Shown one piece after another: positions 12,270 to 57,121 of a DNA stretch of 64,000 nucleotides. Position 1 is the stretch's first letter. Each line of letters starts with the position of its first letter. The DNA is from Candidatus Kurthia intestinigallinarum (GTDB lineage: Bacteria; Bacillota; Bacilli; Bacillales_A; Planococcaceae), in NCBI RefSeq assembly GCF_003991225.1, contig NZ_JTFC01000031.1, positions 434,001 to 498,000 of the forward strand, read 5' to 3'. The position numbers and the translations under genes were made by a program. The notes beneath the pieces were generated by a model. That model saw only the letters and a program-made list of their open reading frames with translations, did no database searches and was not told the origin of the DNA.

Positions 12270-12966
<697 letters not shown>

Positions 12967-12998
12967 AAAAGGTGAATATTAAGATTTTCACTGACACA

Positions 12999-17384: not shown

Positions 17385-17634
17385 ATAAAAAAACTCCTCG
17401 CCCCAAACAAGGGACGAGGAGAAGTTAACTCGCGGTACCACCCTAATTGCATAGTTAGACCATGCCACTTAAGAACACCTTAACGCGGTGGTAACGAGAC
17501 GGCTTACTAAAGTTCAGCAATCTAGCTCAAGAGTGATCTTCAACCTTATCTGTACCGTTCGAGCTCTCACCATCCTCGAATCGCTATACTGCAGCATAAA
17601 GTTTACTGTCTCTATCAGTGCTTTTCATTCATAT
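17385..17634 (-). promoter_or_regulatory. T-box riboswitch, isoleucine-specific, with terminator
   Basis: The minus-strand leader carries the T-box core AGGGTGGTACCGCG (17431-17444) and an intrinsic terminator (CTCCTCG stem and a seven-T run, 17385-17422). The upstream Stem I region contains an AUC triplet at 17535-17537 in the context GAAGAUCAC, the usual specifier-loop setting, so the sensed tRNA is isoleucine. Uncharged tRNA-Ile pairing with the specifier and T-box bulge would favour the antiterminator and switch on ileS. Confidence 0.93.
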
Positions 17635-55568: not shown

Positions 55569-56198
55569 ATGACAACTGTTCAATGGACAACAAAAGATTT
55601 TGACGTTTTTACAATCGATGGTTTAGAACCTCGAATGGAAGCATTAATCGAGCAAGTTCGCCCAAAATTTAATGAGCTTGGTGAGGAATTCTCACATTAT
55701 TTCACCGTCGAGCTTGGCGAAGAATTTTTTGCGCATGTCGCAAAGCACGCACGTCGTACAGTCAACCCACCGCATGATAGCTGGGTGGCATTTGCGCCAA
55801 ATAAACGCGGCTATAAAGCGATGCCTCATTTCCAAATTGGTTTATTTGAAAGCCATCTATTCATCAACTTAGCTGTGATTTACGAGGCACCACAAAAAGA
55901 TGCTATGGCTGCACGTCTTTTAGCGAAGCCAGAACTTTTTGATGCATTACCAGAGAATTTCTACGTTGCCGGTGATCATATGTCTCCTGTGACGCAAAAT
56001 ATTAGTGAAGCCATCGCAAATGGCGATGTAGAAAAATTATTAACACGTCTACAAAATGTGAAAAAAGGTGAATTCATCGTTGGGCGCACATTATCACGTG
56101 AGGAAACCGTCGCATTATTACCAAAAGCATTTCATCAAGTCGTAGAAGATACATTCAATGCTCTACTACCAATTTATAAAACCATGTTAAATCGTTAA
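55569..56198 (+). CDS. yktB: DUF1054 (UPF0637, YktB) protein
   Basis: 209 aa cytosolic protein of unknown function. Family stretches include FDVFTIDGLEPRMEALIEQVRPKF, HARRTVNPPHDSWVAFAPNKRGYKAMPHFQIGL and VGRTLSREE. GAAGGAG precedes the ATG. Single-gene plus-strand unit ending at a strong terminator. Confidence 0.92.
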   Translation: MTTVQWTTKDFDVFTIDGLEPRMEALIEQVRPKFNELGEEFSHYFTVELGEEFFAHVAKHARRTVNPPHDSWVAFAPNKRGYKAMPHFQIGLFESHLFINLAVIYEAPQKDAMAARLLAKPELFDALPENFYVAGDHMSPVTQNISEAIANGDVEKLLTRLQNVKKGEFIVGRTLSREETVALLPKAFHQVVEDTFNALLPIYKTMLNR

Positions 56199-56206
56199 TA
56201 AATTAT

Positions 56207-56249
56207 AAGCCGTAACACATTCTATTTTTCAATGTGTCACGGCTTTTTC
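56207..56249 (+). terminator. Terminator of yktB
   Basis: Hairpin AGCCGTAACACATT / AATGTGTCACGGCT (one mismatch) followed by TTTTTC on the plus strand, 9 bases after the stop. Confidence 0.88.
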
Positions 56250-56264
56250 ATTTTTAAAAATACG

Positions 56265-56755
56265 TCATTCGCCCAAGAAGCGTCTTTTAGATACGACATA
56301 TTTTTGAATATGTGTCATCTGTAAGACAGAAGCCTTAGTCAGTTATTAATTATGTATGCCCAAGTTCATTTTTCAAAAATGATTACTAAAACATGAACTG
56401 ATTTTTATAAAATTTTAGTAAGCCTTATGTTCAAAAACGAACAAAAAATGCCCTTTAGCGATTCATTTTGAACGATTTGACGCTACACTGCTTTTTTTAT
56501 CTTTCTCGCTGCCAGCTTCTTATTTCAAGCCGGAAAAATGATGAATCGGGTGAAAAATCGACCTCTAACGGTTAGTTTTCACCCGCTTTTTTAGAATTGC
56601 TATGCAAAAGTATCGTATTTTTTTAAGATTTCTTTGCTAACTATTTGTCACGACGTTCTATTGAGCGCAAAAAAATGAAATTCAGTCAGCCTATTCACTT
56701 AGTGTTGTCGCTTAATGAAAAATATGTCGTATCCAAAACACGCTTTCTGGCATGA
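56265..56755. mobile_element. Candidate MITE-like element or insertion-sequence remnant with about 40-bp terminal inverted repeats
   Basis: The left end (56265-56305) and the reverse complement of the right end (56718-56755) share TCAT, GCC, AGAA, GCGT, TTTT and the uninterrupted core GATACGACATATTTTT, with small gaps. The roughly 410 bases inside have no convincing ORF but contain nested inverted repeats (AGTTCAT/ATGAACT, TTACTAAAA/TTTTAGTAA) and a plus-strand terminator. No target-site duplication is evident. It fills most of the 629-base gap between yktB and yktA. No transposase is seen, so it would be a non-autonomous or decayed element. Confidence 0.6.
56547..56592 (+). terminator. Orphan terminator inside the MITE-like element
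   Basis: Perfect 10-bp stem CGGGTGAAAA / TTTTCACCCG with an inner CTAAC-GTTAG pair and CTTTTTT on the plus strand. No plus-strand gene precedes it after the yktB terminator, so it may end a small RNA or be an element relic. Confidence 0.8.
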
Positions 56756-56774
56756 TTAGCGATTTCTGATAACA

Positions 56775-56823
56775 TAAAAAAATTCGACGTCGCATCAAAA
56801 AATGATGGGCGTCGAATTTTTTT
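56775..56823 (-). terminator. Terminator of yktA
   Basis: Hairpin AAAAATTCGACG / CGTCGAATTTTT with an inner CATC/GATG pair, beside the yktA stop; usable in both directions. Confidence 0.88.
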
Positions 56824-56827
56824 GTCG

Positions 56828-57121
56828 TTATTTACGTTTATTTCCTTTTGGTTCGCCTTTAATAATCGCTTTTGCTGGTGCCTCTTTTGCTTTTTTCACA
56901 ATTGTATAAGCGGTATAGCCACTATCTTTTTCAAATTCGCGACAATATGTTTTTTCTTCAGACATTGCCGGTACAATTTCTTTGAAGCGACGATACGTTG
57001 CAAGAACGACCTCGCGCTTTACGCCCGTTTCGTATGCTTTTTCAATTGCTTGGAAAAAAGCGATGACGTCGACGATTTCTTGTGATGACCATTCGAGTGA
57101 AAATGGATATGAATATTCCAT
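56828..57121 (-). CDS. yktA: UPF0223 (YktA) protein
   Basis: 97 aa. The family N-terminus [34 protein letters not shown] is clear; a basic C-terminal tail ([10 protein letters not shown]) follows. AAAGGTAGGG precedes this ATG; 28 earlier codons run into the end of lrgB. Function unknown. Confidence 0.92.

Follow-up and report, generated by a model that had tools for sequence, protein, structure and literature searches.

A dispersed Kurthia repeat bounded by inverted Xer-like sites that match the site beside a plasmid-type tyrosine recombinase

MITEs and internally deleted insertion sequences are short and gene-free, with long inverted repeats and many copies. Integron attC sites consist of an inverted pair of core sites with unmatched spacers, and a single site lies beside the recombinase gene. 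REP/RAYT systems comprise hundreds of dispersed palindromic repeats whose enzyme, a Y1 transposase, is encoded elsewhere. In Acinetobacter, as the module descriptions in two papers have it, each dif (pdif) module has a 28-bp Xer site (11+6+11) at either end, the two in inverse orientation, sites are shared between plasmid and chromosome, and spacer identity decides which partners recombine (PMC12907356, PMC13141974). We analyzed a window of 64,000 nucleotides (the whole stretch presented above) from Candidatus Kurthia intestinigallinarum, in which the gap between yktB and yktA holds an element with such sites at both ends. Our searches of open-licence papers turned up none on this element family or on the combined plasmid–chromosome arrangement described here.

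The element between yktB and yktA

The element lies between a yktB-like gene (DUF1054; 55569..56198, + strand) and a yktA-like gene (UPF0223; 56828..57121, − strand), both gene names being those of the initial annotation, which had proposed an element of about 490 bp with inverted ends. The inverted ends are real: the left end GCGTcTTTTaGATACGACATATTTTT (56280-56305) and the reverse complement of the right end GCGTgTTTTgGATACGACATATTTTT (56718-56743) are identical at 24 of 26 positions and share the perfect 16-mer GATACGACATATTTTT, whereas in 500 Markov-1 simulations of the region no perfect inverted repeat with its halves 300 bp or more apart exceeded 13 bases (mean of the longest, 7.7). Similarity of the ends had been put at about 40 bases; in the family alignment it continues imperfectly over about 60 bp, out to CAGAAATCGCTCATGAGC..., and the element is therefore a little longer than first stated, at about 56257-56770. 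With 514 bp, this copy is divergent and shorter than most family members (586-590 bp in 43 of 56 copies). Its edges were set by near-identical copies of Kurthia huakuii and are accurate to several bases.

A left outer inverted repeat (56257..56290, + strand; 3' end GCGTcTTTTaG) is followed by the left 28-bp core site, ATACGACATAT-TTTTGA-ATATGTGTCAT (11+6+11; 56291..56318, + strand), which has the layout of the site upstream of plasmid-type recombinases. The right core site, ATACGACATAT-TTTTCA-TTAAGCGACAA (56705..56732, − strand), is inverted and is followed by the right outer inverted repeat (56733..56770, − strand). The interior (56319..56704) includes a hairpin, AATCGGGTGAAAA/TTTTCACCCGCTT, followed by a T run (56544..56588, + strand), which is terminator-like by eye and absent from the consensus scan. 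Scans of the element gave one terminator match (0.6 in shuffles) and one promoter match (2.9 in shuffles). Two further hairpins lie outside the element: one directly 3' of yktB (56207..56246, + strand), probably the yktB terminator, which has a counterpart at the equivalent position in K. huakuii, and a perfect 14-bp hairpin in the gap before yktA (56776..56823), probably also a terminator.

The interior had been described as lacking a gene, and this holds for the copy, whose ORFs reach at most 36 aa. ORFs of at least 70 aa occur in 22 of 59 full-length copies, compared with 26% in Markov simulations, and one minus-strand frame is open in about 10 copies and interrupted in the remainder. With such frames intact in some copies but disrupted in most, the family is unlikely to have a conserved gene. 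An Rfam scan of the element gave nothing at the gathering score and only weak matches at relaxed thresholds. Elsewhere in the window, a T-box leader (17407-17627) and a PyrR binding site (12833-12976) matched Rfam at gathering scores on the minus strand.

A family in two Kurthia species

We compared eight Kurthia drafts, including the window's own genome (G000) and K. huakuii LAM0618 (G003), and found that the family was limited to these two species. Searching the window's genome with the DNA of the element returned 94 matches (E up to 1), almost all at element ends; the end pattern (up to 2 mismatches) occurred 30 times forward and 30 times in reverse, all in inverted pairs 443-539 bp apart. 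K. huakuii had 61 matches to the end pattern, one of which (C8:387580) looks like chance, and the other six Kurthia genomes had 0 or 1. A profile built from the copies found 30 full-length elements in the window's genome; in K. huakuii it found 29, together with two single ends and a remnant of a left end (L184). Among 84,980 species genomes, where records close to the window's genome may be absent, the end pattern marked 42 stretches: 33 in K. huakuii and nine isolated single matches elsewhere, which we took as chance.

The initial annotation had read the element as a MITE or an internally deleted insertion sequence. The dispersed family, its long inverted ends and the lack of a conserved gene agree with that reading. 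Of the two conditions named for rejecting it, the lack of any further copy proved false, and an occupied yktB-yktA site in relatives was seen for K. huakuii alone. An ordinary transposase origin is not supported, as the ends match the site beside a plasmid-type tyrosine recombinase. The autonomous, transposase-bearing relative that such elements call for was not found in the draft assembly, since all 60 matches pair at 443-539 bp and none surrounds a longer element; in all eight Kurthia drafts, no pair of these ends enclosed a longer, gene-carrying element. Beside such an end, the only gene seen was that of a tyrosine recombinase, on two contigs that have one end each.

We matched the flanking sequence, up to 2.5 kb per side, of 30 loci in the window's genome with that of 32 loci in K. 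huakuii. At 21 of the 30 sites, both flanks matched a K. huakuii site (occupied by a full element in 20 cases and by the remnant in one); four of the remaining sites matched on one flank, and five had no partner or a paralogue only. The yktB-yktA site is occupied at the equivalent place in K. huakuii, the only relative of which this is true: the gap lacks a copy in six of the seven other Kurthia genomes, being a short spacer with one terminator in G004 and a spacer of about 90-250 bp in four others. In G005, the spacer (L080:824-1500) is occupied by another insert, whose inverted ends are 28 bp long and 86% complementary; by eye it resembles an old, decayed insertion sequence.

The tree and alignment covered 56 of the 59 full-length Kurthia copies (L174, L186 and L044 were left out; L044 is identical to L043 over the part compared, and L043 represents both in the parsimony counts). 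Copies clustered mostly by species and not by site (4 label changes vs. a shuffled mean of 18.8; 0 of 500 shuffles as low). Among 19 copy pairs at shared sites, the counterpart was the best cross-species match in four, the window's copy included. Mean identity was 0.564 for shared-site pairs and 0.534 for the remaining pairs across species; copies of one genome averaged 0.518 in G000 and 0.628 in G003. This grouping despite shared sites suggests that copies exchange sequence, or undergo replacement, within genomes. Long residence at shared sites shows little recent movement. The K. huakuii copy L037 has 98% identity over 627 bp to two copies with different flanks. At L144/L192 (copies L025/L035), where 4.9 kb of the flanks match, the element stands in the opposite orientation; this is the only inversion supported by both flanks, L158/L199 being supported on one 494-bp flank. 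Further orientation flips at L007 and L021 were rejected as MAFFT mis-orientation.

By our own ORF calling, 13 of the 30 elements in the window's genome lie between convergent, 13 between tandem and four between divergent genes; in K. huakuii the contexts are 9 convergent, 20 tandem, 2 divergent and one unclear of 32. No clear target duplication was seen by eye around L037, L043 and L044, and no clean empty site was obtained among the genomes compared. CRISPR-like arrays (repeat GTCTCACTCTTTATTGAGTGAGTGGATTGAAAT, period of about 67 bp) adjoin two of three near-identical K. huakuii elements; the repeat finder was positive on L182 and gave no result on L181, and L187 was judged by its similarity to L182. 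The repeat common to the flanks of L182 and L187 was accordingly set aside as CRISPR-like. Another dispersed repeat (about 90-170 bp, 82-96% identical), unrelated to the element, occurs in flanks of the window's genome (L139, L148, L149, L150, L155, L156 and L162).

Core sites, the Xer-like recombinase and spacing on chromosomes

Both element ends carry an 11+6+11 Xer-type site in inverse orientation, which is the dif-module layout. Of 56 Kurthia elements, 35 could be scored for their left and right 6-bp spacers, and the two differ in every one of these; among the matches listed for G025, a genome from another genus, they differ in 42 of 43 pairs. The two spacers of a G025 pair agree at 2.93 of 6 positions, fewer than the 3.41 of shuffles, where the lowest of 2,000 values was 3.0. 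Differing spacers should hinder self-inversion and other recombination within an element. Over the 56 Kurthia copies, parsimony steps per column were 2.3-7.2 in the site arms, 6.8-12.0 in the spacers, about 13-14 in the outer repeats and 14.3 in the interior, and 36 alignment columns were unchanged in all copies. Conserved interior boxes include AATAAATGACA, which is similar to the inner arm, and many family members have mid-element half-sites, TGTCGCATTTT...GAATAAATGACA; neither is recognizable in the window's copy. The arms within one element were no more alike than shuffled arms (arm1, p = 0.26; arm2, p = 0.994).

The two single ends of K. huakuii lie on short contigs of 11.8 and 21.1 kb, directly upstream of a gene for a 282-aa tyrosine recombinase. 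Genes for a primase-like replication protein and for an amidase on both contigs make these probable plasmids. The recombinase has a PF00589 domain (2.6e-25), and its R, K, HxxR, H and Y, which we take to have the usual catalytic roles, align with those of XerD and 4a8e (archaeal Xer). It scored under the cut-offs of all curated NCBIfam models considered: XerC (118.2 bits), XerD (129.3 bits), archaeal XerA (141.2 bits) and the integron integrase TIGR02249 (63.4 bits; cut-off 265). The adjacent site is ATACAACATAT-ATTTAA-ATATGCGACAC (11+6+11) in K. huakuii and ATACGACATAT-ATTTAA-ATATGCGCCAG in G004. We found a 28-bp site upstream of every host-family recombinase relative inspected, that is, on the two K. 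huakuii contigs and in G004, G030, G025, G151, G234 and G126; the site-bearing sequences in G030, G025, G151 and G234 are contigs, perhaps plasmids. A Psychrobacillus plasmid also has the 28-bp site upstream, and the G126 sequence is identical to it, so the two are not independent. A Vagococcus plasmid has a close variant of the site, and four Lactobacillaceae plasmids a weaker one. The plasmid-type site of K. huakuii also shares the outer repeat of the element. The outer motif CATTTGTCAGAAT that adjoins the G030 recombinase was exact at one of 10 chromosomal sites read in that genome, with close variants at others.

In six annotated plasmids, a DUF2922 gene precedes the recombinase gene, in most cases separated from it by a YvrJ-family gene, and SSB, amidase or replication genes come after it (SSB in five of six); in K. 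huakuii an amidase ORF, not SSB, comes next. The gene order DUF2922-YvrJ-recombinase recurs in Psychrobacillus, Vagococcus and Lactobacillaceae (L226-L231) and resembles that of the K. huakuii contigs (L197/L198). A close homologue of the recombinase was not found in the assembly of the window's genome; the two homologues present share 26-29% identity with it and are presumably XerC and XerD. In this species, then, the draft may lack the enzyme, or the enzyme may have been lost, or host recombinases may have taken its place. The plasmid replication protein has relatives, at 44-51% identity, in three places of the same genome. In both species, a relative of this protein lies between two inverted elements about 41 kb apart (G000:C24:48837-50219; G003:C13:40739-42097).

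We scanned the site pattern (up to 1 mismatch) in 261 family genomes: 42 had any match and 10 had at least six, whereas reversed-pattern controls gave at most two per strand per genome. Genomes with at least 17 sites came from five genera (G000, 58; G003, 61; G025, 79; G030, 31; G127, 52; G233, 29; G243, 17). At 20 loci in G025, G030, G127, G233 and G160, picked from the listed matches and not at random, every locus was an inverted pair, some partners being at 2-3 mismatches, with mostly 0-1 or about 21 bases between cores. In G127, a stretch of about 144 bp around a pair recurs in 23 more places at 81-90% identity; the element part has no alignment in 18 relatives, whereas the flanking gene aligns in 18 of 18. 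Many G127 copies reach beyond this length with ragged edges, in a comparison from which one of the 24 copies (L334), of uncertain orientation, was left out.

Sites and recombinase co-occur in part. Recombinase relatives (E up to 1e-40) were found in seven of the 261 genomes, four of which also belong to the 10 with at least six sites (p = 3.7e-5, for a cut of six chosen after the counts were seen). Leaving out G234, whose six sites include its own recombinase-adjacent one, the overlap is three genomes (p = 9e-4). At the same threshold, G000, G127, G233, G243, G058 and G160 have at least six sites without a recombinase homologue, and G004 has the recombinase gene (a match with one internal TAG) without chromosomal pairs.

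In three genomes the pairs are spaced more evenly than expected by chance. The G025 genome has two contigs, of which the 3.74-Mb one, with dnaA at its start and a skew change near 1.9 Mb, carries at least 44 pairs at a spacing CV of 0.43 (0.97 expected; 0 of 20,000 simulations as even). These pairs come from listed 2-mismatch matches, with some degenerate pairs missing (n = 44 for spacing, n = 43 for the spacer test). Within-contig spacing was also even in the window's genome (CV 0.54, p = 0.014, 12 distances) and in K. huakuii (CV 0.50, p = 0.003, 16 distances), and weakly even on contig 1 of G127 (p = 0.096). The smallest nearest-neighbor distance was 17 kb among the 44 listed G025 pairs and 37 kb within contigs of the window's genome. 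Orientation showed no bias against local GC skew in Kurthia (14 of 30 agree in G000 and 13 of 29 in G003). A hand tally under a post hoc rule, which we do not use as evidence, put 28 of 42 G025 pairs in agreement with their replication arm.

Explanations and known systems

The explanation we favor, and to which we give about an even chance, is that the element is non-autonomous and dif-module-like, bounded by inverted 28-bp Xer-like sites and served in trans by a plasmid-encoded recombinase. We infer that this enzyme binds the sites, recombines them and has spread them. Acting in trans, it would place copies at new chromosomal positions, exchange them and occasionally invert them, for example through plasmid–chromosome cointegrates resolved at another pair of sites; movement could use the cointegrate-and-resolution route that the cited accounts discuss for single dif modules. 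The unlike 6-bp spacers would restrain self-inversion. This explanation is supported because the window's genome has 30 inverted pairs with no unpaired match and no longer element, because the core lies directly upstream of the recombinase across several genomes, with the outer repeat shared in K. huakuii and the outer motif recurring in G030, because site-rich genomes and recombinase relatives overlap in part, because the catalytic positions align with XerD, because the element at L144/L192 is inverted relative to its flanks, and because copies group by species rather than by site. It is opposed by the want of a close recombinase homologue in the window's genome and in five further site-rich genomes and by the presence of the gene without chromosomal pairs in G004; by spacers that differ within elements, hindering recombination; by ragged edges in G127, with no target duplication and no clean empty site; and by long residence at shared sites.

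Even spacing and arm conservation at long-held sites are unexplained if the element is simply mobile. They are what chromosomal docking or organizing stations would display, at which a bound protein (the plasmid recombinase or a host factor) keeps evenly spaced paired sites that tether the plasmid, offer it safe integration points or organize the chromosome, strand exchange being secondary. The evenness in G025, G000 and G003 (weakly on G127 contig 1), the slow change of the core arms relative to the interior and the 21 sites occupied in both Kurthia species argue for such stations. Yet their distribution is patchy, unlike that of a core cell function (at least 17 sites in one of 32 genomes of genus g7 and one of 19 of g13), Kurthia has no orientation rule, and insertion immunity or deletion of close pairs could also yield even spacing; we therefore consider such stations, and the uses just named, possible and rather unlikely. 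We propose equally tentatively, as one joint proposal, that in the host family a plasmid Xer-like recombinase seeds the host chromosome with paired site copies of unlike spacers every ~80-120 kb and that the seeded stations, held by selection, let the plasmid dock or recombine almost anywhere, the regular spacing being functional design.

The other alternatives appear weaker. An attC-like mode, in which the inverted pair folds as a single strand with its unlike 6-nt spacers unpaired and is recombined with the double-stranded site of the plasmid, would suit the short pairs of other genera, two of three of which folded as strong DNA hairpins (z = −3.84 and −6.51; the third −1.89), the dissimilar G025 spacers, the single site beside the recombinase and the SSB gene that follows it in most annotated plasmids. 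But Kurthia cores are mostly about 490 bp apart, the window's ends folded singly at z = −2.57 and 0.14, arms within an element match no better than shuffled ones, K. huakuii lacks SSB at that place, and the recombinase scores far below the integron-integrase cut-off, which makes this mode improbable. We are similarly doubtful of an ordinary MITE family of a DDE insertion sequence: the long inverted repeats, the many copies, a recent copy with different flanks and the restriction to two of eight Kurthia species all fit it, but the eight drafts hold no longer element with these ends, the ends match tyrosine-recombinase sites across genera, and conserved site arms, differing spacers and even spacing speak against it. 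So a plain MITE and a deleted insertion sequence both fit poorly, because 21 of 30 sites are common to both species and the site arms have changed far less than the rest of the element. A multicopy non-coding RNA gene, its ends forming a closing stem, could account for the uniform length of most copies and the conserved interior boxes; with no Rfam match at gathering scores, and with cores that persist in other genera even though the interiors there shrink to a few to some tens of nucleotides, it is very improbable.

These results connect an otherwise anonymous repeat of the chromosome with a family of plasmid recombinases, in an arrangement common to several genera, and one recombination system may serve both plasmid and chromosome. 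Active sites would allow a plasmid to rearrange the chromosome, or to integrate into it, at dozens of evenly placed positions; sites that are mainly bound may instead let the plasmid be carried along by the chromosome.

As dif modules are described in the cited accounts, the Kurthia element is like them in being bounded by inverted 11+6+11 sites common to plasmid and chromosome. It differs in that the elements have no conserved gene and are solitary, evenly dispersed and present in tens per genome rather than clustered; arrays of alternating modules sharing sites were not seen, neighbors being at least 17 kb apart. The likely enzyme also differs, as a single plasmid-borne Xer-like recombinase and not the host XerC/XerD. 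Unlike MITEs, the family is evenly spaced, its end sites are strongly constrained and match a tyrosine-recombinase core, and no parent insertion sequence was found. The inverted pair with unmatched spacers and the single site beside a recombinase recall attC, whereas gene cassettes or arrays were not seen, the recombinase falls under the integron-integrase cut-off and the Kurthia pair is far apart. Like REP/RAYT, the family is dispersed, palindromic and apparently served by an enzyme encoded elsewhere, which here would be a tyrosine site-specific recombinase, with even spacing and tens of copies. The parts are thus of known kinds (Xer sites, inverted modules and dispersed repeats), and none of the open-licence papers that our searches turned up describes their combination.
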